Source of the DNA: a virus
Strand: one strand, 5' to 3'
DNA: 25,836 bases
IMG/VR virus record: IMGVR_UViG_3300042691_004628
Location: 1-25,836 of that record
The translations under genes and the position numbers were made by a program. Below, piece after piece: positions 1 to 17,564 of the stretch. Below the pieces are notes generated by a model, which had not been told where the DNA came from, did no database searches, and worked only from the letters and a program-made list of their open reading frames with translations. Positions within the stretch are counted from its first letter, which is position 1. The number at the start of each line of letters is the position of its first letter.

Positions 1-457
1 CGCCCTTATTACTTCCTGATCCGCCGGCTCCGCCGTTACTACCTTGTCCACCAGTACCACTTGATCCGCCACCGTTTCCAGATCCGCCGCCACCGGATCC
101 ACCACCATTACCTGCTTGTCCTGCAGTTGCACTAGTACTTGAGCCAGCGCCGCCGCCTCCGGTAGTTGAAACTGTTCCTATATCTGAACTAGATATTACA
201 GATGATGACCCATTACCGCCGTGAGTGTTACCAGTACTATTACCAAAACTCCCGCCGCCGCCAACAGTTAATGTATATGTTATTCCTCTAGTGAAAGTTT
301 GACTTGCATATGCAGTATAGCCGCCGGCTCCACCGCCTCCACCTCTTCGTGCGCCTCCACCACCGCCACCTGAAACAAGTAAATAATCTACTGTAAGAGG
401 GCCACTAGGGGCACCTCCTGATGCAAATACATAAGAATTAAGTAACATTCCTGACAT
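1..457 (-). CDS. Glycine-rich phage tail/fibre protein, 3' part missing
   Basis: The gene starts at an ATG at 457-455 and stays open for about 152 codons to the left edge, so its C-terminus is outside the window. An AGGAGA ribosome site (466-471) lies 8 nt upstream, and the stop of the preceding fibre gene is only 2 nt away, so the two are probably co-translated. After a short start (MSGMLLNSYVF) comes a VDYLLVSGGGGGGA-type segment, then mostly Gly with Ser, Thr, Ala and Asn. The motif 'YLLVSGGGGGG' followed by 'GGYTAYASQTFTRGITYTLTVGGG' spacing is typical of the glycine-rich domain at the tips of many phage tail fibres, where polyglycine sandwiches can form a host-contacting surface. The local base composition is more G+C rich than the neighbours because of the GGN codons. 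The role as a distal fibre or adhesin component is inferred from composition and position; a generic structural protein is the alternative. Confidence 0.8.
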   Translation of the reverse strand, partial: MSGMLLNSYVFASGGAPSGPLTVDYLLVSGGGGGGARRGGGGGAGGYTAYASQTFTRGITYTLTVGGGGSFGNSTGNTHGGNGSSSVISSSDIGTVSTTGGGGAGSSTSATAGQAGNGGGSGGGGSGNGGGSSGTGGQGSNGGAGGSGSNKG

Positions 458-459
458 TA

Positions 460-2586
460 TTATGTTCTCCTATAATAAAGAGTAACTTTTAAGCCAGTTG
501 CGCCTGTACCCGCAGTATCTATATCCATAGTTATTTCATCATCATCTGCAAAAGTAGTTGTAGATAATACTGCTGCTGTGGCTGCGGTGGTACTTGTTTT
601 TTCTCCAGAATCAATTGTTAATGTAGTACTAAAAATAGTTGTGCCGTTTTTATTAATATCTATTGCAGGATTACCAGATGAACTTGCAGTTGATAATGAT
701 GCTCTTGGTATTTGATAAAGAGTCATATCAAATGGTGCTCTGAATGTAATTTTACCAACACCTGTCGTAATTGCAGTAGTTTCGTCACTTAATGCAACAG
801 TCATAAACAAGTTAGGTTTTAATCCAGTTAACAAACTACCATCACCGGTGAAGTAACTTGATGTGACTAAATTTCCTAAGTTAGCGTTACCTGATGTAAT
901 ATTACCAGTAACTGTTAAACTTGCTAATGTACCTGTACTTGTAATGTTTGGTTGAGCATTTGTTGTAACAGTACCTGCTGTAGTTGCACTTGATACAGTA
1001 CCTGTAACATTTGCACCAGCAAGACCTGATAGATAACTACCATTACCAATAAAGAAACCAGTACCACTGGTACCAGCTGTTATGTTTCCATATATACCAA
1101 CTGCACCTGATACACTTCCATAGCCCGTTACTATAGTAATAGTACCGCTACTATCTTGTATATTTGATGTTTTAATTCCAGTGCCAGTATTAGTAATCAA
1201 TCCTGATACTGTTAAACTTGCTAATGAACCAACTGAAGTTATATTTGGTTGAGCATTTGTTGTAACAGTACCTGCTGTTGCCGCAGTAATACCTGTTAAT
1301 AAACTACCATTCCCACTAAAATAATTTGCTATAGCTACATTACCTAAAGAAGTATTACCAGTTGATGTTGTACCAACCATATTCAAGTAAGCTGATCCAT
1401 CATTAGTAAATTGCCATGCATCATCTGTTTCAGTCCAACGCAATAATACTGCTGAACTATCTCCGCGTACAACTCGTATACCAGCATTAGCTGACGGTGT
1501 ACCTGTTGTTTCTGCACTAATGTCAATTATAGAATCTTCTACGCTTAGTGTACTTACACTTAAATTACCTACTCCACCGTTGATAATTAAATTACCAGTT
1601 ACAGTAAGATCATCATTAATTTTAACAGTACCCGTACCTTGTGCTGAAATTGCTAAATCTGTATTTGCTTGACGAGTAGTTATAGTATCAGAACCAATTG
1701 GGTTAGCAAAATTTATTGCGCCGCCATCGCTACTTGTAATATTACTTCCTGCTTCAAGTTGCAGAGGTCCTTTAATTGCAATAACACCTGTACCAATTGG
1801 ATCAAACTGAATGTCTCCTGAACCGCTAGTAGATATTTTTAAATTTTGATTTATATCAGTAGTAAAAGTAATAGTACCACTTACATCTTCTAAAACTTTT
1901 TTACCAGCAACATATAATGAGCCGGGACCAATATATGCATCTTTAAACCATGAAGAAGCATTACCCAAACTATATACATTATTACTGCTAGGTATAATAT
2001 TACCACTTAGTGATACATTACCTACTGATAATAAGTTTGTTGTTTTGTTATAAGTAAATTGAGCATTACCGCCAAAACTACTACCATCATTAAACTGAAC
2101 ATATGTGTTACTACCGCCGGGACTAGTACCACCGCCGCCACCGCCTCCAATACCACCGGTAGTAATTTCAATTTCTGCTTGATCAGCCGGTGGACTACTA
2201 AAAGTTAATACTGCTCCAGCTAAACTGTATGCTGTACGCAATACAAGTGCACCATTATAATTTACAATAGTGTCATTAATACTAGAAGGGGTAGTGCTTA
2301 GTGTGAAAGCAGTCTGAACCCCGTTACCAGTAAAATTATCTACTGTTACTGTAGTTCCACCTGTTGATTGTGCTACCCAACTTAGTAATCCAGAACCATT
2401 TGTTTGAAGTACGTAATTAGCAGAACCGCCGGTTATTGTGATATTACCAACAGCACCTAGATTTGCGGTATTTGTGACAACAACGTTACCAATATACGTG
2501 TTAGACGTAATATTCCCATTAGCGGCGTTTAGGCTAATAGTACCTGTAGTTAAACCGTTCTTAACGTTAAAGTATTTTGCTGTCAC
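460..2586 (-). CDS. Modular tail fibre protein, fifth of five paralogues, divergent C-terminal domain (708 aa)
   Basis: This predicted fibre starts at GTG (2586-2584). The only nearby ATG (2594) runs into a stop after three codons, and the GTG gives MTAKYFNVKNGLTTG, matching the N-terminus of the 1072-aa neighbour. Visible modules are: an ITGG...VLQTNGSGLLSW unit (about residues 50-70); an FTGNGVQTAFTLSTTP unit (84-142); a glycine run (144-158); a QFND...F unit (163-192); a segment with LYVAGKKVLED and TSSDGG (220-330); an AGIRVVRGD module (345-405); and two QPNITS shaft repeats. The last 117 residues (about 592-708) differ from the C-terminal domain shared by the other four fibres. They look like a beta-rich domain (ITFRAPFDMTL, then TLTIDSGEKTS, ending GLKVTLYYRRT) that I recall from other phage structural proteins. 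Role: host-contacting or shaft fibre, inferred from the modules. Confidence 0.85.
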   Translation of the reverse strand: MTAKYFNVKNGLTTGTISLNAANGNITSNTYIGNVVVTNTANLGAVGNITITGGSANYVLQTNGSGLLSWVAQSTGGTTVTVDNFTGNGVQTAFTLSTTPSSINDTIVNYNGALVLRTAYSLAGAVLTFSSPPADQAEIEITTGGIGGGGGGGTSPGGSNTYVQFNDGSSFGGNAQFTYNKTTNLLSVGNVSLSGNIIPSSNNVYSLGNASSWFKDAYIGPGSLYVAGKKVLEDVSGTITFTTDINQNLKISTSGSGDIQFDPIGTGVIAIKGPLQLEAGSNITSSDGGAINFANPIGSDTITTRQANTDLAISAQGTGTVKINDDLTVTGNLIINGGVGNLSVSTLSVEDSIIDISAETTGTPSANAGIRVVRGDSSAVLLRWTETDDAWQFTNDGSAYLNMVGTTSTGNTSLGNVAIANYFSGNGSLLTGITAATAGTVTTNAQPNITSVGSLASLTVSGLITNTGTGIKTSNIQDSSGTITIVTGYGSVSGAVGIYGNITAGTSGTGFFIGNGSYLSGLAGANVTGTVSSATTAGTVTTNAQPNITSTGTLASLTVTGNITSGNANLGNLVTSSYFTGDGSLLTGLKPNLFMTVALSDETTAITTGVGKITFRAPFDMTLYQIPRASLSTASSSGNPAIDINKNGTTIFSTTLTIDSGEKTSTTAATAAVLSTTTFADDDEITMDIDTAGTGATGLKVTLYYRRT

Positions 2587-2606
2587 AGTTCCATATTCCC
2601 TGTATA

Positions 2607-2637
2607 TAGTATAATAGCCATTTAGACTATTATACTA
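2607..2637. repeat. Perfect 11-bp inverted repeat between two fibre genes
   Basis: TAGTATAATAG (2607-2617) and CTATTATACTA (2627-2637) are perfect reverse complements around a 9-nt loop. The repeat begins 1 nt after the stop codon of the 1072-aa fibre gene and lies 20 nt before the GTG start of the 708-aa gene, in the longest gap inside the fibre cassette (52 bp). On the minus strand no U-run follows the stem and the stem is almost all A/T, so a classic terminator is doubtful. An mRNA processing or stabilising hairpin, or a weak attenuator, is possible. The arms also contain TATTAT/TATACT, resembling -10 boxes, but I see no convincing -35. Confidence 0.6.
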
Positions 2638-2638
2638 C

Positions 2639-5600
2639 TTATGTTTTCAAGTAAGTCACTAGTAAATTAACATTTGCATTAAGACTAGCTGATGTTGCAT
2701 AAATTTTTACATTTCCAGTAGCAATATTACTTGATAATTCAATAAGGTCTGCGGACACATTAGAGCATACACTACCGTAAATTGAGATATATGAATTTGT
2801 TCCATCGTGTACCAAAATACTTTCTACGGATTGATACCCGTCATCTCCGGATGCGCTAATTATATATTTTGCAGTTCTATATGTACCGGTTGCAAACTCA
2901 TCAATAACTGTATTTGTTGTAACTGCGATATTACTACGATTACTTGTTAGTCCACCATTTAATGATACATTTCCTGAGATAGTATTGCCGGTTACTGTTA
3001 CACTAGTTAGTGTACCAACACTTGTGATATTTGGTTGTGCATTTGTATATACTGTACCAGCCACTAATGCATTACCAACTTGACCACTGACATTAGCGCC
3101 TGCTACTGAGTTTGCAATGTTTGCATAATGACTTTGTACTGCACTTGATACGTTACCTACAACGTTGCCGCCAGCAATATCTGATAAGTAACTACCATTA
3201 CCACTGAAATAATTAGCACTTACTAAGTTACCGCCAGCTATATTGCCTGCAGTAATATTACCACTACCAACATTTAGATATCCACTAACATTTGCACCAG
3301 TACCGGTGACTGTTAGTATGGCTGCATTACCACTAACTCCAATTACTACATTACCGTCAGTAGCTGGAATTGAAACGTTTGAAGTACCATTAGATATACT
3401 GCTTGAACTAATACTTACCCAACTTAATATACCAGCGCCATCGGTTCTTAATACTTGTCCAGAACTACCACCAGTGATGTGAACATTAGCAACTGGACCT
3501 AACGCAACGTTACTTGCACCTGTAAAATCAATTGTACCTGTACCAGTAAGTCCTGCTAATGTACCAACACTTGTGATGTTTGGTTGAGCATTTGTCGTTA
3601 CTGTACCGGCTGTTGTTGCACTACCGGCAGTTCCTGCACTTGTTGCATAAGTTGCATTTGCCACAGTACCTGAAACGTTAGCACCAGCTATATTAGAGAT
3701 ATAGATACCATTACCACTAAAGTAATTAGCAGTAACTAAATTACCTAAATCAGCATTACCTGATGTAATATTACCTGTTACTGTTACGCTTGATAACGTA
3801 CCAACTGAGGTAATGTTTGGTTGAGCATTTGTTGTTACTGTACCGGCAGTTGTAGCTGATGTTGCACTACCTGAACTACCTGCACTTGTTGCATAAGTTG
3901 CATTTGCCACAGTACCTGAAACGTTAGCACCTGCAATGTTAGATATGTAAATACCGTTACCAGTAAAATAATTAGCAGTAACTAAATTACCACCATCAAC
4001 ATTACCTGCTGTTATATTGCCTGTTACTGATAAACTTGTTAATGTACCAACACTTGTAATTTGTGTTTGACTTGCATTAACACTGAATGTTAAGTCAGTT
4101 AATGTTAATCCAGTACCAGCAGTATACACTTGGGATGTGCTAAATTCTGAAAAAGTGATGTTTGAAGTACCAAAGGTAATAGTACCTGAAGGTGCGCTAA
4201 TAACCCATGCAATACCTTTATTAGCTGTGCCACCAGTAGTAAAGAAATAATCATTAATACTGATCTGTTCCGTACTATCAGCTCCGTATTCATCTGTGTC
4301 AGTTGAACGAACAATTGCAGTAGTATTTGCATATGTATAGACACCATTCCATGCTGAATTAGCTTCATCTTTAACAAGAATACGTGTACCAACTGTTTGT
4401 ACATTAGCACCATCAATATTTAAATATGTACCTGTTGTACTAATATAAGCACCAATCCCATTTGCTGCACCGTTTGGTGAGTTGTAAGCAGTTGTTCCAC
4501 CTGTAGCAACTGCTAAGGTAGATGTAGTGGCAACATATACTGGCTGATGGTATGTGATACCGCTTGTTATCATTGTATCAACATATGACTTTGTTGCGGC
4601 GTCAGTTGATAAACTAGGGTAACCAACATTGTTTACCCATTGTGATTGCATATTTACATTAGCACCAAATGAACCAGTACCTGTTGCAACAAAATTACCA
4701 ACGTTAGCATTACCAGTAACATCTATACTTGCTAGTGTACCAACTGATGTGATATTTGGTTGTGCATTTGTATAGACTGTACCAGCTACTAATGCATTAC
4801 CAACTTGACCACTGACATTAGCGCCTGCTACTGAGTTAGCAATGTTTGCATAATGACTTTGTACTGCACTGGAAACATTACCGTTTACATTAGCACCAGT
4901 AAGATATGTTATCCCAGCACCGTTTGCTGTTATATTATCTACTGTTAGTACTTTAGTTGATTTGTCAAAGGTGAAGTTAGCACTAGCACCAAAACTTCCA
5001 CCATCATTAAACTGAACCTGTTTGTCAATACCTGCAATACCAGTAGATCCGGCACTTGCAAAAGTTAATGTTCCTGAACCGTCTGTTTGTAAAACATATC
5101 CGGCTGCACCACCGGTGATGTGTAAATTACCAATAGCACCTAAACTGACATTACTTGCAGTTGTAAAATCAACAGTAGAATTACTTACTAATCCTGCACT
5201 TGTTATTTTGCCAGGAGCACTTAAATTACCACCGTTTTCAAATGTCCAAGTATTAGAAATCGAACCACCTGTTCCAACTTGTACAGTTACATTACCACCA
5301 CGATTTTGGAATATGTCTGTTTGACTAGTACCTAACGTGACACCTGAACCACCAAATGTGCCTCCAGTAATTTGTGAAGCACCACCTAACTCAATAATAC
5401 CACTTGGCGCAAACTTTGTTGAATTACCACCTGATGTGATATTAATAAGACCGGTCACACTACTTAATGAAACTCTTGTATCATATGTGCTAGCATTTTG
5501 TACGATTTCTGGAGCAAAAACAGTATTAGAAGTGACTAAATTACCACCACTTATATTACCAGTTACTGTTAAACTTGCTAGTGTACCAACACTAGTAATA

Positions 5601-5857
5601 TTGGGTTGAGCATTTGTGTAGACTGTTCCTGCTAGTAATGCATTTCCTACTTGTCCACTAACATTTGCGCCAGCGGTATTAGATAGAAATATACCGTTAC
5701 CAACAAAATAGTTCGCAATTGCAGCATTACCTAAATTAGCAGAAGCAGTGCTAACTATAGTAATATTACCTACTCCACTAAAATTACCAGATGCTGCATC
5801 AATTACCACATCACCAGTTTGTATGCCAGCTTGTACTTTAAAATAGCTAGTTGTCAT
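2639..5857 (-). CDS. Modular tail fibre protein, fourth of five paralogues (1072 aa)
   Basis: It starts at ATG 5857 with AAGGA (5867-5871) 9 nt upstream, giving MTTSYFKVQAGIQTG, the N-terminal signature of the fibre family. The body alternates five QPNITSVGTL shaft repeats plus a variant (SQTQITSVGTL), two VQSHYANIANSVAG units, ITGG...VLQTDGSGTL units and a QFND unit. At about residues 400-590 (nt 4084-4660) it carries an insert absent from its siblings: DAATKSYVD, RILVKDEA, NGVYTY and later VYTAGTGLTLTDLTFSVN. This is a familiar phage fibre module from memory, where 'ATKSYVD' marks a shaft-to-globule junction. The last 92 residues (nt 2642-2917) match the C-terminus of the 2867-aa fibre (DDGYQ, VHDGT, YGS). 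Function as a structural fibre is inferred; no enzymatic motif and no self-cleaving endosialidase-type chaperone is visible. Confidence 0.87.
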   Translation of the reverse strand: MTTSYFKVQAGIQTGDVVIDAASGNFSGVGNITIVSTASANLGNAAIANYFVGNGIFLSNTAGANVSGQVGNALLAGTVYTNAQPNITSVGTLASLTVTGNISGGNLVTSNTVFAPEIVQNASTYDTRVSLSSVTGLINITSGGNSTKFAPSGIIELGGASQITGGTFGGSGVTLGTSQTDIFQNRGGNVTVQVGTGGSISNTWTFENGGNLSAPGKITSAGLVSNSTVDFTTASNVSLGAIGNLHITGGAAGYVLQTDGSGTLTFASAGSTGIAGIDKQVQFNDGGSFGASANFTFDKSTKVLTVDNITANGAGITYLTGANVNGNVSSAVQSHYANIANSVAGANVSGQVGNALVAGTVYTNAQPNITSVGTLASIDVTGNANVGNFVATGTGSFGANVNMQSQWVNNVGYPSLSTDAATKSYVDTMITSGITYHQPVYVATTSTLAVATGGTTAYNSPNGAANGIGAYISTTGTYLNIDGANVQTVGTRILVKDEANSAWNGVYTYANTTAIVRSTDTDEYGADSTEQISINDYFFTTGGTANKGIAWVISAPSGTITFGTSNITFSEFSTSQVYTAGTGLTLTDLTFSVNASQTQITSVGTLTSLSVTGNITAGNVDGGNLVTANYFTGNGIYISNIAGANVSGTVANATYATSAGSSGSATSATTAGTVTTNAQPNITSVGTLSSVTVTGNITSGNADLGNLVTANYFSGNGIYISNIAGANVSGTVANATYATSAGTAGSATTAGTVTTNAQPNITSVGTLAGLTGTGTIDFTGASNVALGPVANVHITGGSSGQVLRTDGAGILSWVSISSSSISNGTSNVSIPATDGNVVIGVSGNAAILTVTGTGANVSGYLNVGSGNITAGNIAGGNLVSANYFSGNGSYLSDIAGGNVVGNVSSAVQSHYANIANSVAGANVSGQVGNALVAGTVYTNAQPNITSVGTLTSVTVTGNTISGNVSLNGGLTSNRSNIAVTTNTVIDEFATGTYRTAKYIISASGDDGYQSVESILVHDGTNSYISIYGSVCSNVSADLIELSSNIATGNVKIYATSASLNANVNLLVTYLKT
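3024..3157 (-). repeat. Direct repeat within the 1072-aa fibre gene, copy 1
   Basis: This 134-nt stretch is nearly identical to 4749-4882 in the same gene and encodes the same VQSHYANIANSVAG...QPNIT segment. By eye only scattered, mostly synonymous differences separate them. The copies are 1725 nt apart in the same orientation, so recombination between them would delete or duplicate shaft modules in frame. Confidence 0.85.
4749..4882 (-). repeat. Direct repeat within the 1072-aa fibre gene, copy 2
   Basis: Partner of 3024-3157: same length, same orientation and same reading frame. It encodes a VQSHYANIANSVAG unit followed by GQVGNALVAGTVYTNAQPN. Confidence 0.85.
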
Positions 5858-5879
5858 TTTTTATTTTCCTTGATTTTCT

Positions 5880-8800
5880 TTAATCTGCCACATAAGTTGC
5901 CATTAGATTAATTGTAGTGTTGGTTGATGTGGTCGTAGCCAACACTCGTACATTGCCTGATAATATACTACTTGATAATGAAACAATATCAGTACCTATA
6001 GTAGATAAACTTCCGTAAATTGTCACAAAACTATCAGAACCGTCATGTATTAATAATACTTCAACAGCCTGATATCCGTCGTCACTATTCACTCTCATAG
6101 TGTATTTAGCTGATCTATATTTATTTACCGAAAAGCTATCAATTATGGTGTTAGTTGAGACATTTACCGGGGTTCTATTACTGTATAAATCATTAACTTT
6201 TAAACTAGTGATTGTACCAGTGTCTAAAACTGTTAGATTTCCAGTTGTACTATAGTTTTTAGCCGATACATTACCCTGAGAAATGACATTACTTGATGTA
6301 CCTCCCACTGTAATATTTGATATTCCGGATGTGAAAATAGTAGCATTTCCAGAAGATACATTTATAGTTCCGGTATCTAGTGTTATCAATCCAGATGATA
6401 CTGTTGCATTTGAAACTGTCAACAAATTGGTTGTTTTGTTGAATATAAAGTTAGAAGTTGCCCCAACATTTCCAGCATCATTAAAGATTACTTGCGTATT
6501 TGCTCCTAATCCCAGTGTCCCGTATACGGTGATTTCAACTACCTCACCTAAATATGGTGCACTTGCCATAGTAACAGTAGAACCAGATAGTGTGTAGGCA
6601 GCATCTTGTTGTAAGATACCATCTATATTAACTAGGATTGCATCTTCACTTGCAGGAGTTGTTGTTAGTACGAATGCAGTCTGTGTACCATCAGCTACAT
6701 AACTATTTTTAATGATGTTGACAAACCCAGGACCTGCGCTTCCACCACTAGCTTGCCAGCTTACATCTCCAGAACCGTTTGTTGTTAATACATACCCTGA
6801 TGTACCACCAGAAATCTTTACGTTACTTACTGCGCCGAGAGTAGTTACTCCATTAACAGTCAATGCAGCTAATGTACCTAATGATGTGATATTTGGTTGA
6901 GCATTTGTGTAAACAGTACCAGCAACTAATGCGTTGGCCACTTGTCCAGAAACATTAGCCCCGGCTACTGAATTGGCAATGTTTGAATAGTGACTTTGGA
7001 TTGCGCTAGTTACATTACCGTTAACATTGGCGCCAGTTATATATGTTAGGGTACTGCCATTTCCAATGAAATAGTTTGCAGATACATTACCGGTGTAAGT
7101 TGGTAGATACGCGGCTACGTTGCTGTTTGCATATCCTGCGGGCAATCCTGTCAACAAACTACCATCACCACTGAAATATGTTGCAGTTACAAGATTACCT
7201 AAATTAGCGTTACCTGATGTAATATTACCGGTAACATCTAAACTTGTTAGTGTACCGACTGAAGTAATATTTGGTTGAGCATTAGTATAAACTGTGCCTG
7301 CTATTAGTGCATTGCCCACTTGACCTGATACATTAGAACCGTCTACTGAATTGGCAATATTTGCAAAATGACTTTGTACAGCACTTGTGACATTACCATC
7401 TACATTAGCACCGGTTATATATGTTAATGTACTGCCATTTCCAATAAAATAGTTTGCAGATATATTACCGGTGTAAGTTGGTAGATATGCGGCTACATTG
7501 CTGTTTGCATATCCTGCAGGTAGACCAGTTAATAAGCTACCGTCACCGCTGAAATATGCAGCAGTTACTAAATTTCCTAAATTAGCATTTCCACTTGTAA
7601 CATTACCTACGATTCCTACATTACCCGTAATAGCAACTCTTGGGGCATTAGAATAACTAGGATAATCGCTTATAACAGATATTACGTTTGAATAACCAGC
7701 AGTGATATGATATCCTTGTATATTAACATTAGATCCTGATTGTAAGCGTAAATCTTCACTACTAGCTATTCCAGAAGAACTAACTATTTTTGTAGAAACT
7801 TGATAATTTATAGTAGCGTAAGACGCATCTATGTTTCCAATAACTGTCAGTAATGCAGGACCCGTATCAAAGAGTAAGTTAGGATTGCCAGTCAACACAC
7901 CGCTATTATTAAACTGTATTTCTCTGGTATTTCCACCAGCTGCCGAAGTATCAATTCCCCAACTTAAATTGCCAGTACCATCAGTTTTTAATACATATCC
8001 AGCTGTACCGCCAGAAATATGTAGATTGCTTACATTACCTAAAGTAACGTTTGATGTAGTTGTAAAATCAACAATGCCAGTTGCGTTGCTTACAATCAAT
8101 CCAGATAATGAGCCTAAACTTGTAATGTTTGGTTGTGCATTTGTATAAACTGTTCCGGCTACCAATGCATTGCCTACTTGACCACTTATATTGCTTCCAG
8201 TTACACTAAATGCAGAACCTGCATATGTTGCATAGTTAGCATTAGCTACACCGCCAACAACATTAGGGCCAGCAACAGCATATGATTGAAATGAAACTCC
8301 TGACCATGTTGCGTAGTTTGCATTTGCTACTTCACCTGATACATTGCTACCAACTACGTAGTTAGCAATATTTGCGTAATGACTTTGAACTGCACTAGTA
8401 ACATTACCGTATACATTAGCTCCGGCAATATTAGAGATATAGATACCATTACCACTAAAGTAACTTGCTGTAGCTAGATTACCTAAATTAGCGTTACCAC
8501 TTGAAATATTAGCAGTAACAGTTAAACTTGATAGTGTACCAACTGATGTGATGTTTGGTTGTGCATTTGTATAGACTGTACCTGCTACTAATGCATTACC
8601 AACTTGACCTGATACGTTAGAACCAGTTACACTAAATGCAGTACCTGCAAAATTAGCATAATTTGCATTTGCTACTGTTGCACTAGAAATTTGTAAATTA
8701 CTTAAGTAACCACCGTCACCACTAAAGAAGTTAGCAGTTACAAGATTACCTAAATTAGCATTTCCACTTGTAACATTACCTGTTACTGTTACACTTGTTA

Positions 8801-11800
8801 ATGTACCAACTGAAGTGATATTTGGCTGAGCACCTGTTGTTAATGTCCCGCCTAGATAAGTAGCACTTGCTAAGTTACCTAAACTAGCATTACCTGATGT
8901 AATGTTACCAGTTACTGTTACACTTGATAGTGTACCAACTGATGTGATATTTGGTTGTGCATTAGTGTACACAGTACCGGCTACTAGTGCGTTACCTACT
9001 TGGCCTGATATATTACTTCCTGCTACTGAGTTGGCTATGTTTGCGTAATGACTTTGTACTGCACTTGTTACATTACCAGTTACATTACTACCAGTGATAT
9101 TTGCTAATGCGCTACCATTGCCTATGAAGTGACTAGCCCTTACATTTCCAAAAGTATTAAATGTCACTACTTCGCTTGAGACAGAGACATTACTACCAAA
9201 TGCAAACTCACTATTTGAGTTATCCCAACCCATGTATGCATCAACGACACCGGTTGTATAGTAATGTAATAATGTGCCTCGATCTTTCCCATCATTTGCT
9301 GTTAGTGGTGCTCCATTAACGCCGCCACCTAGTTCAATGATCGGGTCCTCGACTCTAAATGTTTCTACATTAATGTAAGTTGTATTTCCACCTACTATAA
9401 AATTACCAGTTACAGTAGCATCACCGCTTACACTCAAACTTACTAATGTGCCAACTGATGTGATATTTGGTTGTGCATTTGTATATACAGTACCTGCTAC
9501 TAATGCATTACCAACTTGACCTGATATATTACTTCCTGCTACTGAGTTGGCTATATTTGCATAGTGACTTTGAACAGCACTAGTGACATTACCGTTTACA
9601 TTAGCACCAGTAATGTATGTTATTCCAGCCCCATTTGCAGTTATTTTATCTACAGTAAGTGTTTTAGTTGTATTATTAAATGTGAAGTTAGCACTGGCTC
9701 CAAACGCTGTACTATTATTATATTGTACTTGCGTATCTGATCCAGCTGCTGAAGTAGTGAACACATATGGATCACCGTTTGCATATAACAAATTATTAGT
9801 TTTAATATTTCCTGCGCTTACATTGCCTGTTGCAGATACTCTAGTAGTGCTTAATGTATTAGTTGTATTATCAAACGTAAAATTAGCAGAGCCGCTCAAA
9901 GAACTTCCACTAATAAACAATATCTGTGTGTCAGTTTCAGTTATTGCCAATGCGCCATATACAGTAACTTCAATCTTTGCACCAGATGCAGGCGCTGTAC
10001 TGAAAATTAATGTACTACCACTTAAACTATATGTAGTATCTAATTGAATTAAACCATTCAAATTAACTAATAATGCAGCCTCACCAGTTGGTGTTGTACT
10101 CAAATTAAAATTAGTCTGGACACCGTTACCAGTAAAACTGTTTCTAACAATAGAAACAAATCCACCACCACTTCCTGAGCCAGCTTGCCATGATAGAACA
10201 CCAAAACCATCTGTGGTTAGTGAGTATCCAGCAGTACCGCCAGTAATAGTTAAGTTACCAACATCACCTAAATTTGTCGATCCGTCAACTGTTAATGAAG
10301 TTAATGTACCAACTGATGTAATGTTTGGTTGAATCTTTGTAGTTAATGTACCTGTTAGATAATTAGCACTTACCAAGTTACCACCACTCAATGAGTTACT
10401 TGCACCCATTGTTGTGTTAACTAATGTGCCAACACTTGTGATATTTGGTTGTGTAGCAGTTGTTAATGTACCTGTTAGATAATTAGCACCTACTAAATTA
10501 CCTCCAATTAAATTACCTGAACCTTGTAATGTTATATTTTTTGTAGATAGAGTACTAGTTGATTTAGTAAATGTGAAGTTTCCATCTGCACCAAAATTAC
10601 CAACATCATTAAATTGAATTTGAGTGTCTGTACCTGCAACACCTACTGAGCCTGATGAAGTCCAAGTCAATACACCTGATCCATCAGTAGATAATACTGC
10701 ACCTGCTGTTCCGCCTGATATATGTAGATTTGCAACTGCACCCAAAGTTACATTTGCAGTAGTTGTGAAATCGACTACTCCTGTTGCGTTGCTTACAGTT
10801 AGTCCCGACAAAGAACCAACTGATGTAATATTTGGTTGAGCATTAGTATAAACTGTACCTGCTATTAGCGCATTGCCCACTTGACCTGAAACATTAGCGC
10901 CTGCAATGTTAGATATTAATATACCATTACCACTGAAATATGTTGCACTTGCTAGATTACCTAAACTCGCATTACCACTAGTAATGTTACCTGTTACTGA
11001 CAGACTTACTAATGTACCAACACTAGTTATATTTGGCTGCACAGGTGTTGTTAGTGTTCCAGTAAAATAGTTTGATGTTACTAAATTACCACCATCAATA
11101 TTACCTGCTGTTATATTACCAGTTACAGTTAATGATATTAATGTACCAACACTTGTGATGTTTGGTTGAGCCGCAATAACTACATTACCGGCATATGCAC
11201 TATAATTAGCGTTACCTATAATACCGGTTAATTGACTTCCGTTCCCTAAGAAGTAGTTAGCACGAACATTACCAAAATTATTAAATGTTACAACATCACT
11301 TGATACAGAAACATTACTTCCAAAAGCAAACTCGGCATTTGAATTATCCCATCCCATGAACGCATCTACTACCCCAGTAGTGTAGTAGTGCAATAATGAG
11401 CCACGGTCTTTGCCGTCATTAGTAGTTAACGGAGCTCCGTTAACACCGCCTCCTAGTTCAATTATTGGGTCTTGAACTTTAAACGAGTCTACATTAATAA
11501 AAGTAGTAGTACCAGTAACTGTGAAGTTTCCAGCAACTGTAGCATCGCCGCCTACATTTAGATTTGCTAAAGTTCCAACTGAAGTTATGTTTGGTTGAAG
11601 TGCAGTAGTTAGTGTTCCTGTTATGTAATTAGCACTTACTAAATTACCACCTGTTAAACTACCAGGACCTTCTAATACTATGTTTTTAGTTCCTAATGTA
11701 TCAGTTGACTTATCAAATGTAAGATTAGCGTCTGCACCAAAACTACTATTATCATTAAATTGAATCTGAGTGTTACTTCCTGCTAAACCTGCGGCTGCGG

Positions 11801-14483
11801 GATTAACCCAAGATAATACTCCACTTCCATCAGTGCGTAATACATAACCAGATGTACCACCTGAGATGTGCAGATTACTCACTGCACCTAGTGTTACATT
11901 AGAGGTTATATTAAAATCAACAACTCCAGTAATGTTACTAACTGTTAGTCCAGATAATGAACCCAATGACGTAACATTAGGTTGTACTGCGGTTGTTAAT
12001 GTACCTGTTAGATAAGTAGCACTTACCAAGTTACCACCACTTAATGAGTTACTTGCACCCATTGTTGTATTAACTAATGTACCAACTGATGTAATATTAG
12101 GCTGTGCCGCAGTAATTACAGTACCTGCATATGTACTATAATTTGCATTTGCAACTGTACCTGAAACATTGGCTCCTGCAATATTTGATATGTATATACC
12201 ATTACCAATATAATAAGTAGCAGATACTAAATTACCAGCAGAGATATTACCTACTGAAACATTACCAGTAGCAGCATCTTTGCCAACAATTTGTTGATAA
12301 TATGTTCCGTCATTAGTAAACTGCCATGCTGCTTGTGATTCATTCCATCTAAGTTGTACAGCTAATTCATCACCTCTAATAACTCTTATTCCAGCATTAT
12401 TGCTAGGTGTACCTATTGTTTCTGCACTAATATCAATTGTATTGTCTTGTACAGTAAGATTAGTTACACTAAGATTACTATTGTCACCGTTAACAGTTAA
12501 ATTACCTGTTACAACTAAATTGCCAAGTATGTCTAACCCATTCAATGTACCAACACTTGTTATGTTTGGTTGAGCATTAGTTATGACAGTACCTGCATAT
12601 GTACTATAATTTGCATTGGCTACAGTACCTGAAACATTGGCACCTGCTATATTAGATATATAGATTCCGTTACCACTAAAATAGTTTGCTGTTGCTAAGT
12701 TGCCTAAGTCAGCATTACCACTAGTCATATTAGCGGTAGTTGTTAAGCTAGTCAATGTACCAAGACTAGTGATGTTTGGTTGAGCGCCTGTTGTTATTGT
12801 GCCGGATAAGTAAGTTGCACTTACTAAATTGCCACCACTCAATGAGTTACTTGCACCCATTGTTGTATTAACTAACGTGCCAACTGAAGTAATGTTTGGC
12901 TGTGCAGCAGTTATTACTGTACCTGCATATGTACTATAATTTGCATTAGCTACAGTACCTGTAACATTAGAACCTGTTATACTTGAAAGATATATTCCAT
13001 TACCACTAAAATAATTTGCAGTAGCTAGATTACCTAAATTAGCATTACCACTAGATATGTTTCCAGTGACAGATAAACTTGTTCCAGACGCTACACCTAC
13101 ATTTGGTGTTATCAACGTTGCACCAGATTGGCGTATAAACGTACCTGTGCCGTTAGCGGTATATTCAGATGTAGTTAAGTGAAAATATTCTTGATTAGTT
13201 CCACCTTGTAGCCCGGCTAAGTCATCGTGTAAGATTACCCAAGGTGTTGTAAAGTGACTGTCCTGTACAGATCCGTCCAATGAAAAAGTTAATGTTTTGG
13301 TTGTATCAGATGTTGCAAAAGTTATAATACCTAATTTTGATGCAACTGTTACATTAAATGATGGTTGTGTGCTAGAAAATTGAAACTCTGTCAGAACGGT
13401 AGAAACAACTGTCATTGATCCACTTTTGAAAAGTTGATTCCAAACTTGACCTGCTACTGCATTTTCATTACTGTATCCACTAGGAGTTGAAATGGTAACT
13501 ACAGTATCATTTGTTTTTGCTGTGATTTGATATAATCCATTTGGTGTTTGTAACCAACTTGAGGTAGTATTAGTTCCGCTAGCAGTCACACCGCTGAATG
13601 GTGTACCAGTACTAGCAGTTGCTGTTCTACTTGTACCGCTACCCGTTATAGTTACTGTACCTGATACAAAAGGAATAACTTGATAAAAGTCTAGTTCAAA
13701 TGTATTGGTTCCACCAACAGCATTTATATTAGCATACACACTAAAATCGTAACTTCCTGCATCAAAAATAGTTCTGTTAAGTGCATTTGTTTCCCATGCA
13801 GCCATTGGCAAAGTATTATTATTGACACTAGTAGACAATAGTGTTGAAGATGGTGTATACGGAGTTTGACTTAAACTATTAATTTCAAATGAATTGTTTA
13901 CTGACGATGCCGTAATTGCTGTTGAGGTTAACCAATATTTTACACCTTGGCCAGCAGAAGAACTTCCTGCACTACCGTTAATCCAATTAACACCGTTGTA
14001 AGTTAATATTTGCCCAGTAGATGGATAAGATAATACAACATCACTCAAATTTCCTAATGGTAATCCAGTGATGCTATAACCATTGCCACTGATATAATTT
14101 GCAATAGCTAGATTGCCTAAATTAGAAGTGCCACCAGCTGTAACTGTTAAGTTACCTACAGTTAATAAATTAGTAGATGAGTTAAATGTAAAATTTGAAC
14201 TGGCACCAAAGTTACCATCATTATTAAATTGTACTTCTCTATTGCTTCCTGCTAATCCTATTGCACCTGGATTAGTCCATGATAGTAATCCACTGCCATT
14301 AGTTTGTAAAATGTAATTGGCTGTCCCGCCTGTTATTTTTACATTACCAACTGCACCTAAATCTGACGCAGCGGTTACTGTTAAATTATTGGCATAAAAA
14401 TTAGCATTTGCATCGACTACCGTAATTTGAGTTGAATCGTTTACTGTATAGCCGTCAATTGAGTTGAACTTGGTAATTGCCAT
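5880..14483 (-). CDS. Giant repetitive tail fibre protein, third of five paralogues (2867 aa)
   Basis: One uninterrupted frame of 8.6 kb starts at ATG 14483 (MAITKFNSIDGYTVN) with only a weak ribosome site (GGA, 6 nt upstream). Residues 1-160 hold the family N-terminus plus ITGG and QFND units. Residues about 170-455 form a non-repetitive region ending in HDDLAGLQGGTNQEYFHLT, a motif I recall from other phage fibres. From about 460 to 2770 the chain is shaft: I count 18 QPN(I/V)TS repeats, seven QFND-like units and five VQSHYANIANS-like units. Embedded in it are one AGIRVIRGD module (about 661-731), two IELGGG...DGKDRG modules (about 986-1087 and 1694-1795) and two FTGNGVQT-type modules (about 1440-1511 and 2588-2651). 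The final 90 residues are the shared C-terminal domain. It is extremely Asn/Gly/Thr/Ser-rich with no Cys-based or enzymatic motif. A long beta-structured fibre is inferred. Lack of any stop or frameshift suggests it is expressed. Confidence 0.88.
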   Translation of the reverse strand: MAITKFNSIDGYTVNDSTQITVVDANANFYANNLTVTAASDLGAVGNVKITGGTANYILQTNGSGLLSWTNPGAIGLAGSNREVQFNNDGNFGASSNFTFNSSTNLLTVGNLTVTAGGTSNLGNLAIANYISGNGYSITGLPLGNLSDVVLSYPSTGQILTYNGVNWINGSAGSSSAGQGVKYWLTSTAITASSVNNSFEINSLSQTPYTPSSTLLSTSVNNNTLPMAAWETNALNRTIFDAGSYDFSVYANINAVGGTNTFELDFYQVIPFVSGTVTITGSGTSRTATASTGTPFSGVTASGTNTTSSWLQTPNGLYQITAKTNDTVVTISTPSGYSNENAVAGQVWNQLFKSGSMTVVSTVLTEFQFSSTQPSFNVTVASKLGIITFATSDTTKTLTFSLDGSVQDSHFTTPWVILHDDLAGLQGGTNQEYFHLTTSEYTANGTGTFIRQSGATLITPNVGVASGTSLSVTGNISSGNANLGNLATANYFSGNGIYLSSITGSNVTGTVANANYSTYAGTVITAAQPNITSVGTLVNTTMGASNSLSGGNLVSATYLSGTITTGAQPNITSLGTLTSLTTTANMTSGNADLGNLATANYFSGNGIYISNIAGANVSGTVANANYSTYAGTVITNAQPNITSVGTLNGLDILGNLVVTGNLTVNGDNSNLSVTNLTVQDNTIDISAETIGTPSNNAGIRVIRGDELAVQLRWNESQAAWQFTNDGTYYQQIVGKDAATGNVSVGNISAGNLVSATYYIGNGIYISNIAGANVSGTVANANYSTYAGTVITAAQPNITSVGTLVNTTMGASNSLSGGNLVSATYLTGTLTTAVQPNVTSLGSLSGLTVSNITGVVDFNITSNVTLGAVSNLHISGGTSGYVLRTDGSGVLSWVNPAAAGLAGSNTQIQFNDNSSFGADANLTFDKSTDTLGTKNIVLEGPGSLTGGNLVSANYITGTLTTALQPNITSVGTLANLNVGGDATVAGNFTVTGTTTFINVDSFKVQDPIIELGGGVNGAPLTTNDGKDRGSLLHYYTTGVVDAFMGWDNSNAEFAFGSNVSVSSDVVTFNNFGNVRANYFLGNGSQLTGIIGNANYSAYAGNVVIAAQPNITSVGTLISLTVTGNITAGNIDGGNLVTSNYFTGTLTTPVQPNITSVGTLVSLSVTGNITSGNASLGNLASATYFSGNGILISNIAGANVSGQVGNALIAGTVYTNAQPNITSVGSLSGLTVSNATGVVDFTTTANVTLGAVANLHISGGTAGAVLSTDGSGVLTWTSSGSVGVAGTDTQIQFNDVGNFGADGNFTFTKSTSTLSTKNITLQGSGNLIGGNLVGANYLTGTLTTATQPNITSVGTLVNTTMGASNSLSGGNLVSANYLTGTLTTKIQPNITSVGTLTSLTVDGSTNLGDVGNLTITGGTAGYSLTTDGFGVLSWQAGSGSGGGFVSIVRNSFTGNGVQTNFNLSTTPTGEAALLVNLNGLIQLDTTYSLSGSTLIFSTAPASGAKIEVTVYGALAITETDTQILFISGSSLSGSANFTFDNTTNTLSTTRVSATGNVSAGNIKTNNLLYANGDPYVFTTSAAGSDTQVQYNNSTAFGASANFTFNNTTKTLTVDKITANGAGITYITGANVNGNVTSAVQSHYANIANSVAGSNISGQVGNALVAGTVYTNAQPNITSVGTLVSLSVSGDATVTGNFIVGGNTTYINVETFRVEDPIIELGGGVNGAPLTANDGKDRGTLLHYYTTGVVDAYMGWDNSNSEFAFGSNVSVSSEVVTFNTFGNVRASHFIGNGSALANITGSNVTGNVTSAVQSHYANIANSVAGSNISGQVGNALVAGTVYTNAQPNITSVGTLSSVTVTGNITSGNASLGNLASATYLGGTLTTGAQPNITSVGTLTSVTVTGNVTSGNANLGNLVTANFFSGDGGYLSNLQISSATVANANYANFAGTAFSVTGSNVSGQVGNALVAGTVYTNAQPNITSVGTLSSLTVTANISSGNANLGNLATASYFSGNGIYISNIAGANVYGNVTSAVQSHYANIANYVVGSNVSGEVANANYATWSGVSFQSYAVAGPNVVGGVANANYATYAGSAFSVTGSNISGQVGNALVAGTVYTNAQPNITSLGSLSGLIVSNATGIVDFTTTSNVTLGNVSNLHISGGTAGYVLKTDGTGNLSWGIDTSAAGGNTREIQFNNSGVLTGNPNLLFDTGPALLTVIGNIDASYATINYQVSTKIVSSSGIASSEDLRLQSGSNVNIQGYHITAGYSNVISVISDYPSYSNAPRVAITGNVGIVGNVTSGNANLGNLVTAAYFSGDGSLLTGLPAGYANSNVAAYLPTYTGNISANYFIGNGSTLTYITGANVDGNVTSAVQSHFANIANSVDGSNVSGQVGNALIAGTVYTNAQPNITSVGTLTSLDVTGNITSGNANLGNLVTATYFSGDGSLLTGLPAGYANSNVAAYLPTYTGNVSANYFIGNGSTLTYITGANVNGNVTSAIQSHYSNIANSVAGANVSGQVANALVAGTVYTNAQPNITSLGTLAALTVNGVTTLGAVSNVKISGGTSGYVLTTNGSGDVSWQASGGSAGPGFVNIIKNSYVADGTQTAFVLTTTPASEDAILVNIDGILQQDAAYTLSGSTVTMASAPYLGEVVEITVYGTLGLGANTQVIFNDAGNVGATSNFIFNKTTNLLTVSNATVSSGLITLDTGTINVSSGNATIFTSGISNITVGGTSSNVISQGNVSAKNYSTTGNLTVLDTGTITSLKVNDLYSNRTPVNVSTNTIIDSFSVNKYRSAKYTMRVNSDDGYQAVEVLLIHDGSDSFVTIYGSLSTIGTDIVSLSSSILSGNVRVLATTTSTNTTINLMATYVAD
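6870..7541 (-). repeat. Tandem duplication of a 378-nt (126-aa) unit in the giant fibre gene
   Basis: Unit 1 (7541-7164) and unit 2 (from 7163, matching to about 6870) each begin GSLLTGLPAGYANSNVAAYL and continue through YFIGNGSTLTYITGANV, a QSHxxNIANSV element and a QPNITS element. The period is exactly 126 codons. Most differences are synonymous or conservative (for example NIS versus NVS), so the duplication is recent relative to the rest of the shaft or is being homogenised. Confidence 0.85.
9100..9402 (-). repeat. IELGGG/DGKDRG fibre module, copy B
   Basis: It encodes TTYINVETFRVEDPIIELGG, then NGAPLTANDGKDRGTLLHYY, MGWDNSNSEFAFGSNVSVSS and GNVRASHFIGNGS. It is about 100 aa long and closely matches the copy at 11223-11526 in the same gene; a divergent third copy is in the 761-aa fibre (about 15283-15585). 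The pattern 'D-P-I-I-E-L ... D-G-K-D-R-G ... W' is a non-shaft domain inserted between QPN repeats. Confidence 0.85.
10381..10422 (-). repeat. NTTMGASNSLSGG shaft element, copy 1 of 3
   Basis: This is a near-identical 42-nt stretch encoding VNTTMGASNSLSGG, found again at about 12033-12075 and 12832-12874 in the same gene, in frame and in the same orientation. It directly follows a QPNITSVGTL repeat each time. The three copies mark a larger repeating block with NLVSA(T/N)YL(T/S)GT behind it. Confidence 0.8.
11223..11526 (-). repeat. IELGGG/DGKDRG fibre module, copy A
   Basis: It encodes TTFINVDSFKVQDPIIELGG, NGAPLTTNDGKDRGSLLHYY, MGWDNSNAEFAFGSNVSVSS and GNVRANYFLGNGS. It is the closest match of copy B at 9100-9402, about 2.1 kb away in the same frame. 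Confidence 0.85.
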
Positions 14484-14507
14484 AGTAGGTCCGTAGTTTG
14501 GCCTTTA

Positions 14508-16793
14508 TTAAATTGTTCTGAATTGTGTTGACCAAAGCGTACTATTACTAGACGCTGGGGTGACTGTTAAGTATATATTACCGCTAGCTAAACTTACTCC
14601 CAATGTTCCTGTTGATGTTCCAACTGGAACTTGCACAGTACCTACAACTGTATATTCCACTGTACTTCCATTGTGTACACAATAAACTGTTGCTACACTA
14701 TATCTATTTGCTGATGGCGAATTATTTTGTTCGCTCTTAACATCAAAAATTGCACAACGTGCCTCAGATACTGCTACATACCCAATAACTTGATCGCTAG
14801 TAGTAGCAGTAGTTGTCTTAGTAAATGATCTAATTTTTGTACTTACTGTTGTGCTATAGCCTGCTGTATCCATGCTATATGCTGGCAATGTCAATACATT
14901 AATATTTGCATTACCTACAGTTAATGTACCATTTGTTATACTTACATCAGCATTAGCAATAACTGAGTTGCCAGTAACTGTAAGTACGTTAGCATTTCCA
15001 GCCGCACTTAATGCTACATTACCGCTAGTATAAACAATAATATTACTTGTACCATTTGACAAACTACTTGTACTGATTGTTGCCCAATACAAGTTTCCGT
15101 TTCCGTGAGTGCTTAATACTTGTGTTGCCGATCCGTCAATTACTGGATATGTCAAACCACCTGCAACTAATGATCCTGTTGTAGTTTTTAGTCCTACATT
15201 AAAGTTACCATCAACATTACCATTAACTAAATTACCTATACTTGTAATATTAGTTTGTGATGCTGTTAATAGTGTACCACTTAAATTACCTATAAAGTTA
15301 CCGGCTCTAAAATTAGCATATGCGCTAGCGGTTACAACTTCGTTAGTGATTGTATCAATTTGACTGATAGCTTGAAATTCATCACTACCTGTTTTCCAGA
15401 TCAATGCTTCATTGATTGGTTCGTTATTTGGGTATGCATTTCTTAATATCATACCCCTATCTTTGCCGTCATATGTAGTAGCGTTTGCGCCGTTACCACT
15501 GCCGCCTAATGATATCAACGGATCTTTGATATCTAAATTAGTTACGTTAATATATGTTGTGTTACCTGCTACTGTTAAGTTACCAGTGATTGTAGCATTA
15601 CCTTGCATGTTCGTATCACCACGAACAGTTAATGATCCAACAGATATATTGTTTCCAATATTAGCTGCATCCATAATAATCACATTTGATGTTGATGTGA
15701 TAGATGTAGCCCCAATTAGTATATTAGAAACATATAGATTAGCCCAAAGATTTCCACTACCGCCTAAATTGAAATTGTCGTTAACGCTAGGAACTAATGA
15801 AGATATTACTCTATTCGCAACTGATAAATTTCCTGCATTGAGATTACCGTTAACATTAGCATTACCAGTTACAAGTAAATTACCTAATGTACCAATACTT
15901 GTAATATTTGGTTGGTCGCCAGTTGACAATGTACCAGCAAACAAATTAGCATTTATTACATTAGCGCCAGTAAGATTAGCACCTAAGCCTAAATCACCTA
16001 ATACACTTAATGTACCAAGCGTACCAACAGCAGTTATGGCTGTTTGACTTGCAGTTGTTAATGTACCGGTTAAATAGTTTGCACTTAGTAAATTACCACC
16101 TGATATACTAGCAGGGCCTTGCATTGAAATACTAGACATTACACCAACGCTAGTAATGTTTGGTTGTGCCGCAGTTGTTAGTGTACCACTAAAATAATTT
16201 GCAGTAGCAAGATTACCTAAATCAGCGTTACCACTAGAAATGTTTCCAGTGATAGTAACTACATTAGTTGATTTATTAAATGAGAATCCAGCAGTTGAAT
16301 TAGCTAACCCATTGTCGTTGAATAAAACATATGTGTTGCTACCCGGTACTGAAACGTTACCACTAAAATTACCTACAAAACTACCAAGAAAGTAATTAGC
16401 ACTTACATTGCCATTTGCTGTAATATTGCTGTTTGTATTAATATCACCGTTTGCTAAAATATTAGCGTTTGATAAATTCAATACATTTAGATTAGCAGTA
16501 CCATTTACAGTTAATAAATTAGTTGTAGGATTGAATGAGAAATTAGCACTAGCACCAAATTCGCCGCCATCTTTATATTGTATTTGATAATCTGCAGATC
16601 CAGCTGGTTGTTGAAAGTCCCAAGGTGTACCGTCAAGATGTAACAAGCTATCTGTTCTAACAGCATAATTGCCTTGTACATTACCTGAGAAAGTGCCATT
16701 ACCAGTAGTGATATCACCATTAGCAAGTATGACTGTTGAGGGTACTTCACCTACCGAAAAGCCACCTACTGAGTTAAATGTTCTAATTGCCAT
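14508..16793 (-). CDS. Modular tail fibre protein, second of five paralogues (761 aa)
   Basis: It starts at ATG 16793 (MAIRTFNSVGGFSVG) with AAGGA at 16802-16806, 8 nt upstream and overlapping the stop codon of the 229-aa gene, so translational coupling is likely. Two QFND-type units lie in the first 200 residues, followed by shaft repeats of a more divergent kind (QPNITSVGVM, QTAITAVGTL, QPNITSIGTL, QTNITSIGNL). A divergent DPLISLGG...DGKDRG module sits at about residues 403-503. The C-terminal domain (about 664-761) keeps the VHNG...YTVVGTV and final beta-strand pattern of its paralogues but is less similar to them than the 1072- and 2867-aa domains are to each other. Structural fibre is inferred; its exact place on the virion is unknown. 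Confidence 0.87.
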   Translation of the reverse strand: MAIRTFNSVGGFSVGEVPSTVILANGDITTGNGTFSGNVQGNYAVRTDSLLHLDGTPWDFQQPAGSADYQIQYKDGGEFGASANFSFNPTTNLLTVNGTANLNVLNLSNANILANGDINTNSNITANGNVSANYFLGSFVGNFSGNVSVPGSNTYVLFNDNGLANSTAGFSFNKSTNVVTITGNISSGNADLGNLATANYFSGTLTTAAQPNITSVGVMSSISMQGPASISGGNLLSANYLTGTLTTASQTAITAVGTLGTLSVLGDLGLGANLTGANVINANLFAGTLSTGDQPNITSIGTLGNLLVTGNANVNGNLNAGNLSVANRVISSLVPSVNDNFNLGGSGNLWANLYVSNILIGATSITSTSNVIIMDAANIGNNISVGSLTVRGDTNMQGNATITGNLTVAGNTTYINVTNLDIKDPLISLGGSGNGANATTYDGKDRGMILRNAYPNNEPINEALIWKTGSDEFQAISQIDTITNEVVTASAYANFRAGNFIGNLSGTLLTASQTNITSIGNLVNGNVDGNFNVGLKTTTGSLVAGGLTYPVIDGSATQVLSTHGNGNLYWATISTSSLSNGTSNIIVYTSGNVALSAAGNANVLTVTGNSVIANADVSITNGTLTVGNANINVLTLPAYSMDTAGYSTTVSTKIRSFTKTTTATTSDQVIGYVAVSEARCAIFDVKSEQNNSPSANRYSVATVYCVHNGSTVEYTVVGTVQVPVGTSTGTLGVSLASGNIYLTVTPASSNSTLWSTQFRTI

Positions 16794-16804
16794 TTTCTAA
16801 TTCC

Positions 16805-17494
16805 TTATTCTTTATAACTTGTTATCATAATTTTATATGTAACCAAATTTGAAGTGTATGGTGTTACTAGTAACTCTACACTAGAGGCATTTATTTTTAC
16901 TATAAAATCGCCTACTCCTGGTCCCAATTCTGGAACATCAATTGATCCATATTCATAATAACCTACTTCACTGCCTAATATGCTAGCAAATAATTTACTT
17001 GTCTGTCTATTATTACCTGTTGCATCAGTTGCAATGATAGTGTAATCAATAGAGCATACTGTATTAGCTACAGTGCTATGTAATACTTGTTCAGCACCTG
17101 AACTAGCAGTACTAGCAAACAAAACACTAGAGGTTGAAAATTCATTCAATCCAGAACCCAATGTCATTGTATTAGCAACTAAATCACCTTGTATGGTAAC
17201 TAACTTTGAAGCTGAATCAAAAGTAAAATATTGACTTGCTCCTGCATTACCAAAATCATTAAACACTACATAAGTGTTAAGTCCGGGTACAACAAAGTTG
17301 CCAGTAATATTACCTTCAAATGTTCCTTGAAACAGATTAGCACTGATTGTACCTGTTACAACCTGATCACCACTAATTGTTACATTGCCTATAGATGCAT
17401 AAGGCACTGTTAAATTGCCGTTCTCATCTATAACAGGTATAGGAGGTATCCCAACTGTATAACCGCTTTTACTATTGAATGGATCTGCCGCCAT
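16805..17494 (-). CDS. Short fibre paralogue, first of five (229 aa)
   Basis: The frame is open further upstream from a TTG at 17506, but the ATG at 17494 is preferred. It gives MAADPFNSKSGYTVG, which aligns with the N-termini of the other four fibres, and a GGGA ribosome site lies 6 nt before it. The protein is a minimal version of the family: N-terminal motif, VTISGDQVVTGTISANLFQG-like strand, one FNDFGNAGASQYFTF unit, then the shared C-terminal domain (about residues 130-229). It has no QPN repeat. It is the first gene after the capsid terminator and has its own late promoter (17523-17530), so it heads the fibre transcription unit. It could be a short fibre, a connector between longer ones, or an adaptor such as a whisker or collar part; the sequence does not decide this. 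Confidence 0.83.
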   Translation of the reverse strand: MAADPFNSKSGYTVGIPPIPVIDENGNLTVPYASIGNVTISGDQVVTGTISANLFQGTFEGNITGNFVVPGLNTYVVFNDFGNAGASQYFTFDSASKLVTIQGDLVANTMTLGSGLNEFSTSSVLFASTASSGAEQVLHSTVANTVCSIDYTIIATDATGNNRQTSKLFASILGSEVGYYEYGSIDVPELGPGVGDFIVKINASSVELLVTPYTSNLVTYKIMITSYKE

Positions 17495-17522: not shown

Positions 17523-17530
17523 TATTTATC
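17523..17530 (-). promoter_or_regulatory. T4-type late promoter octamer (GATAAATA) for the fibre operon
   Basis: The minus strand reads GATAAATA, one base from the T4 late consensus TATAAATA, which is recognised by the phage late sigma factor gp55 without a -35 box. It lies 28 nt upstream of the preferred ATG of the 229-aa gene and directly behind the capsid-gene terminator. Expected transcripts would start at about 17516 and run leftward through the fibres. Confidence 0.65.
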
Positions 17531-17564
17531 ATTTTTAGACAATATGAGTTTTCGTTCCCAACAA

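Follow-up and report, generated by a model that had tools for sequence, protein, structure and literature searches.

A 25,836-base linear virus record from an uncultivated giant T4-like phage (IMG/VR record IMGVR_UViG_3300042691_004628, hereafter the window) carries a row of five fibre genes with shared ends, and raises the question of whether such a row encodes several fibres or the successive parts of one. An earlier note, made from the sequence alone, had listed five open reading frames (ORFs) of 229, 761, 2867, 1072 and 708 amino acids at 460-17494 on the minus strand; all five were confirmed, and are designated F1 to F5. With a probability of about 0.8, we read them as the five segments of a single articulated long tail fibre, assembled end to end in the order of the genes. 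The stacking of homologous segments into one long fibre was among the readings offered by that note, and it is now well supported, both by a C-terminal socket domain of the T4 gp9 type and by matched end types across gene borders.

F1 (16805..17494; all features given for the window lie on the minus strand), the baseplate-proximal first segment in the proposed model, is followed by F2 (14508..16793), F3 (5880..14483), which is the third and longest segment, F4 (2639..5857), and F5 (460..2586), which starts with GTG, has no socket and would form the last segment, at the tip. Differences in length had been attributed to the number of shaft modules, and copies of a QPNITSVG-type shaft unit, numbering 0, 2, 18, 5 and 2 from F1 to F5, do account for much of them. 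The gradation of lengths is not conserved in relatives: F3 ranges there from about 500 to more than 2600 amino acids, and the F4 proteins measure about 590 to 1331; F1 remains at about 219-236 in most relatives and reaches 510-522 in loci L034 and L036. Relatives were gathered as 36 loci retrieved with F1 and 76 loci retrieved with the C-terminal domain, and because the end modules recur in these loci, the shared ends are not a matter of chance. In the uncultivated relatives the order capsid-F1-F2-F3-F4-F5 is kept along with the end modules, and segment lengths vary several-fold. None of the inspected loci encodes the five genes as one fused ORF, and the case in which relatives would show them to be a single fragmented gene was not seen; instead, F2 is further split in two in L017, L020 and L031, as is F3 in L021, L030 and L031.

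The N-terminal module, here called the plug, was described by a 38-residue profile that started from F1-F3 of the window and was extended iteratively through the loci retrieved with F1. In the window and its relatives this profile matches protein starts and never interiors, apart from a few truncated or weak cases. Plugs are present on all five proteins. Those of F1 (MAADPFNSKSGYTVGIPP.., 17366..17494), F2 (16680..16793) and F3 (14370..14483) match strongly (expectation value, E, 1e-15 to 1e-21). Those of F4 (MTTSYFKVQAGIQTGD.., 5750..5857) and F5 (MTAKYFNVKNGLTTG.., 2479..2586) constitute a subfamily, N1b, with the pattern KYFNVK.G..TG, about 45% identical to each other and about 26-30% identical to the plugs of F1-F3. 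The motif said to begin all five proteins is therefore common to them, but it comes in two branches. The structure model of the N-terminal half of F1 was of low confidence.

The C-terminal module was described in the same manner, by an 87-residue profile that was likewise begun with window sequences and extended through the same loci. Apart from a few truncated or weak cases among relatives, it matches extreme C-termini only, in F1 (16847..17095), F2 (14535..14804), F3 (5907..6161) and F4 (2666..2923), never internally and never in F5, which bears out the claim that the first four proteins end in one domain of about 90 residues. Pairwise identities are 48-49% for F3 and F4, 26% for F2 and F3, and 37% over 43 residues for F1 and F2. 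Searches of PDB sequences with profiles of the C-terminal domain and of F1 returned nothing significant, so a search by fold was needed to identify the domain. An AlphaFold2 model of the F3 domain, made from 46 sequences, had a predicted local distance difference test (pLDDT) score of 94.4 and a predicted template-modelling (pTM) score of 0.84. Foldseek, run with this model on a PDB library, returned T4 gp9 (1QEX) as the top match, with probability 1.00, E 4e-4, and a template-modelling (TM) score of 0.69 over 106 columns. The model of F1, poor overall, still finds 1QEX (probability 1.00, E 0.029), and the profile also recognises, at the sequence level, the gp9 of Cronobacter phage GAP161 (E about 1e-4 for 1000 sequences). 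The socket proteins of T4 are gp9 trimers, to which the N-terminal end of gp34 attaches, the long fibre being held coaxially on the gp9 C-terminal domain (PMC3004832). By modelled fold and by sequence, the C-terminal domain of F1-F4 is of the T4 gp9 kind, the socket fold of the long tail fibre. Thus F1 through F4 each end in the type of domain that holds a fibre start in T4, and would presumably hold one here.

A search of sixteen related contigs with the socket profile found the fibre cluster and, in large contigs, one distant additional gene. Exactly one such lone gene occurs in each of the 10 related contigs of at least 180 kb, drawn from two contig sets. Its product has a gp9/gp10-type N-terminus; in the contigs searched first, it is a protein of 258-270 amino acids with the N-terminal pattern IDIG.L.NDGTGDPLR.AF.KIN.NF. 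One copy matches phrog_677, "baseplate wedge tail fiber protein connector", at E 5.8e-13; a copy compared with PF07880 (T4_gp9_10_N) gave a weak match of 4.5e-4, below cutoff. By extension from these relatives, the phage of the window should likewise have a gp9 gene, located outside the 25.8-kb fragment. As a separate observation, L144, L147, L148 and G019:74448-74879 encode gp9-like proteins of only about 178-192 amino acids, in which the C-terminal domain follows the N-terminal motif almost directly, with no middle part.

If a socket at the end of one gene product accepts the plug at the start of the next, then the two sides of each border should correspond in type. Gene ends were typed by profiles; single-linkage clustering was dropped, as it lumped unrelated shaft-like ends. 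Pairs of the first type, C1 followed by N1, number 55 and 146 in two data sets that have some contigs in common, giving 201 non-redundant pairs of genes. Two further types occur at non-orthologous places, C2 followed by N2 (3 and 12 pairs) and C3 followed by N3 (4 and 3 pairs); these are matched in 22 of 22 cases, and crossed pairs number 0. The N2 end type corresponds to phrog_9417. Where F2 or F3 is divided, the first half keeps its plug and gains a new C-terminal type, and the second half gains a new N-terminal type and keeps its socket; at these cuts C2 meets N2, and C3 meets N3. Because related loci are not independent, positions were counted instead of pairs. C1:N1 occupies the four gene borders; C2:N2 is found inside F2 and inside F3; and C3:N3 is found inside F3, after F5 (L083), and in a separate fibre downstream (L047, L052). 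The end types agree in 9 of 9 position classes, for which the chance expectation is 4!2!3!/9! = 8e-4. The ends also balance, with plugs on F1-F5 and sockets on gp9 and F1-F4, F5 ending the chain without a socket; in the lineage of the window, the unpaired sockets are those of gp9 and the unpaired plugs those of F1. A second fibre cluster, in the relative G021, likewise ends in a plug gene that has no socket. In the cultured Synechococcus phage S-SRM01, a gene with the C-terminal domain, annotated as a baseplate wedge subunit, is directly followed by a plug gene, annotated as a distal long tail fibre, whose product starts NFKVKNGLEVG (hhalign 90%, E 1.7e-6).

Several points weigh against a jointed fibre, or limit what the above can carry. 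The adjacency of C1 and N1 is partly trivial, as most of the genes involved carry both ends. In a lag test, the similarities among C-terminal ends 0 to 4 follow those among N-terminal ends 1 to 5 with r = 0.86, as compared with r = -0.35 for ends of the same gene, but the test involves five paralogues, 11 of 120 permutations score as high, and one close pair drives the result (the F3 and F4 sockets are alike at 48% and the F4 and F5 plugs at 45%, while the F3 and F4 plugs are unlike at 26%). In one lineage (L109, L112, L129, L133 and L136) the F3 socket is followed by a gene without a plug, and F4 and F5 are absent there. The cyanophages S-SM2 and S-SSM7 have genes with the C-terminal domain and no adjoining plug gene. 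Certain tailspikes, too, have C-terminal domains that match the socket fold, which alone is no proof of a socket role. The N-terminal end of T4 gp34, considered as a homologue of the plug, gave hhalign probabilities of 0.8-2.4%, which are not significant.

In the proposed fibre, each segment would be a homotrimer consisting of an N-terminal plug, a repeat-built shaft and, in F1-F4, a C-terminal socket, and the gp9-type socket of each segment would hold the plug of the next. The first socket would be that of the baseplate protein gp9, whose gene would lie in another part of the genome; it would hold F1, giving a chain in the order gp9-F1-F2-F3-F4-F5 plus variable tip genes. F5 would carry or recruit a variable receptor-binding tip, with lectin-like or glycine-rich proteins encoded downstream. 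New joints would be made by splitting a segment gene and placing a matched pair of other end types at the cut. At T4 proportions (2536 amino acids of gp34+gp36+gp37 per 144 nm), the 5637 amino acids of F1-F5 would correspond very roughly to a fibre of 320 nm.

We consider a broader proposition reasonably probable: that there is a general plug-and-socket code, in which the gp9-type joint recurs, two or more other matched types (C2:N2 and C3:N3) are inserted at different places, and phages change the length or the tip of their long tail fibres by gaining or losing entire jointed segments. One could then predict from sequence which joints are compatible, and gene ends would tell which segment follows which. 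The single baseplate socket of T4 would have been turned into a repeated joint, in a fibre of at least five hinged segments. Under such a code phrog_9417 would act as a fibre joint, and the lone cyanophage proteins with the C-terminal domain could be explained. The ways in which phages construct very long fibres and exchange their host-binding tips are a matter of practical weight.

The same five genes could instead encode parallel, alternative fibres whose plugs compete for one site on gp9, the C-terminal domain serving as a common trimerisation or receptor-binding end. An N-terminal motif common to all five, together with the likeness of the socket fold to tailspike C-terminal domains, would suit this arrangement, as would G021 (524 kb), which has two separate plug/socket clusters (L149, at 155000-170000, and another at about 362800-380400) but one lone gp9-like gene; there, two whole jointed fibres may share or divide the gp9 attachment sites, or compete for them. 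We nevertheless regard parallel fibres as unlikely for the window. The C-terminal domain is of the kind that holds fibres in gp9, and it is absent from F5 only. Each half of a split gene lacks one of the common ends and gains a matched new one, so that the second halves of F2 and F3 could not reach a common site, and the C-terminal end of each protein tracks the N-terminal end of the next rather than its own.

A location other than the baseplate is suggested by the place of the cluster after gp23: the same stacking could produce whiskers on the head, neck or tail. Precedents exist, in that CBB, a related jumbo phage, bears on its tail 119-nm hairs, the gene origin of which is not known (PMC5259590), and the neck fibre of phage A-1(L) is a chain of stacked trimers (PMC10966104). 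However, the sole carrier of the socket found outside the fibre clusters is the gp9-like baseplate connector, and the cluster is set off from the capsid gene by signals of its own. A terminator-like hairpin of the intrinsic type (GGCTC TTCG GAGCC + T6), evident by direct reading, lies at 17563..17586, 3' of the capsid gene, and 36 nucleotides before F1 is GATAAATA (17523..17530), an octamer resembling T4 late promoters, with one mismatch to the late consensus TATAAATA. That consensus is found with at most one mismatch in 15 of 15 distinct regions upstream of F1, as against 4.7 expected from shuffled sequences, and 13 of the 15 near matches sit at 36-38 nucleotides. The fibre genes therefore look like a late transcription unit of their own, separate from the capsid gene, and their place after it says little. 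General family scans assigned F1 to no capsid-binding family, which is weak evidence, as no test was aimed at it. We judge head, neck or tail-sheath fibres to be quite unlikely. Both of these readings, competing fibre types and head or neck fibres, had been put forward in the earlier note; for this cluster they are left unsupported by the gp9-type socket, its absence from F5 and the matched borders. It is very improbable that the genes are evolutionary leftovers, tandem duplicates of one fibre gene of which only some enter the virion and which do not join end to end. The shafts and ends are clearly paralogous and lengths vary widely, as such duplicates might, but five orthologous groups with position-specific ends keep their order across deep divergence, and type matching at split sites would be unexpected.

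Returning to the jointed fibre, its distal end is the variable part. The C-terminus of F5 differs between relatives, and variable genes come after it. In the window, F5 is immediately followed by a glycine-rich protein, cut by the window end (2..457; PF21722, E 3.1e-10; phrog_2295), which is likely a tip protein or adhesin. In L021, L030 and L031 this place is taken by Laminin_G_3 lectin-type proteins, and other relatives have small proteins or further fibre-like genes. By analogy with gp37/gp38 of T4, the variable end of F5 and the genes downstream would together determine host range as a tip. The F5 shaft repeat weakly matches PF06598 (Chlorovirus glycoprotein repeat; E 2.6e-4, below the curated cutoff); being limited to the shaft, this match was set aside as a clue to function. 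After F5 in L044-L054 are fibre-like genes with another N-terminal type, seen as LLQPFNLDT..NYTF.TLTANI and KIEP..V..SANFTF, and with further recurring end pairs, namely ..YYN..QGW followed by starts resembling MSDYSTLKN.., and ..MA.VFGF/IFGG followed by a protein of about 118 amino acids. These pairs may be additional joint types.

At the start of F5, a conserved 5' element, ACAGGGAATATGGAACT+GTG (2584..2603), can form a small hairpin with the start codon in its stem. F5 alone begins at the pattern ACAGGGA-NNAT-GGAACT+GTG, which is strictly conserved, F4 starts being ordinary. Across 1.85 Mb of loci the pattern has 62 matches, of which at least 58 are plainly F5 starts and the other 4 begin VTG... 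An 11-mer of the element, sought in ten large contigs, lies just after F4 at 8 of its 11 sites. The possible fold is a 4-bp hairpin, paired in 23 of 23 distinct sequences, with one compensatory pair. Its two GGA motifs are reminiscent of a CsrA-type translational operator. F4 and F5 are separated by a gap (2587-2638) that exceeds the other gaps in length and that, in the window as in many relatives, holds a strong hairpin whose sequence is not conserved.

The window also has head genes, likewise on the minus strand, for the portal (gp20), the prohead protease (gp21), a scaffold-like protein and the major capsid protein (gp23), after which come F1-F5. With its counterparts in jumbo phages, among them Vibrio phage 2.275.O, PA5oct and 121Q, the capsid protein shares 64-68% identity. 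Of these, 121Q and Vibrio phage 2.275.O were considered as carriers of the cluster and rejected: tail-fibre genes lie near the capsid gene, but no F1 homologue was found in either. A tblastn search of named phages with F1 gave no match. Between the capsid gene and F1, insertions of varied, unrelated genes occur in L007, L025-L027, L030, L034 and L036; one of these genes, with the stretch MKHFIYKTTHKNGKYYVGRHS, resembles a GIY-YIG homing endonuclease. From the variety of its inserts, this border looks like an insertion hotspot. Before the portal gene is an ORF of 726 amino acids (23651-25831), up to 948 in relatives, that was assigned no family by a PHROGs scan and has a peptidase-M15-like stretch, GSKHVQGKALDFTL..GHIHAELG.

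Among known systems, the closest is the T4 long tail fibre (gp9-gp34-gp35-gp36-gp37), likewise from a T4-like phage, which shares the gp9-type C-terminal socket, tandem fibre genes running from proximal to distal, and a last gene followed by tip or adhesin genes. T4 uses the gp9 socket once, and its later joints are made by other proteins (the gp35 knee, and gp36), whereas in the window four fibre proteins in succession have this socket as their C-terminal end. Nor is the cluster a plain member of the T4 fibre family: its plug is not demonstrably gp34-like, and PHROGs scans of F1, F2, F4 and F5 found no match to the gp34, gp35, gp36 or gp37 families (F3 was scanned with Pfam only). The earlier note had set the reused ends seen here against T4 fibre proteins that are unrelated to one another; the reuse stands, but the contrast was overdrawn, as certain repeats and motifs are common to the long-tail-fibre proteins of T4 (PMC3004832) and the end domain is itself of a T4 baseplate type. 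The neck fibre of Anabaena phage A-1(L), gp82-gp81x14-gp80, provides a precedent for stacked homologous trimers, placed head to tail with a different end piece (PMC10966104). It differs in being a neck structure that repeats a single gene product many times, where the window has different genes with a gp9-type socket; the likeness is one of architecture. The cyanophage genes SSM2_107 of S-SM2, SSSM7_233 of S-SSM7 and gp333/gp334 of S-SRM01 share the C-terminal domain, in S-SRM01 with a plug gene directly after, and show one such gene per inspected stretch as against four in a row here. Likeness to the Chlorovirus repeat of PF06598 is weak, is limited to the F5 shaft, and says nothing about joints. 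We came upon no account, in open-access papers, of fibre proteins in a row that each end in a gp9-type domain, subscription papers being outside the search. The system of the window is most probably a variant of the T4 long tail fibre in which the socket, itself already known from T4 gp9, is iterated.

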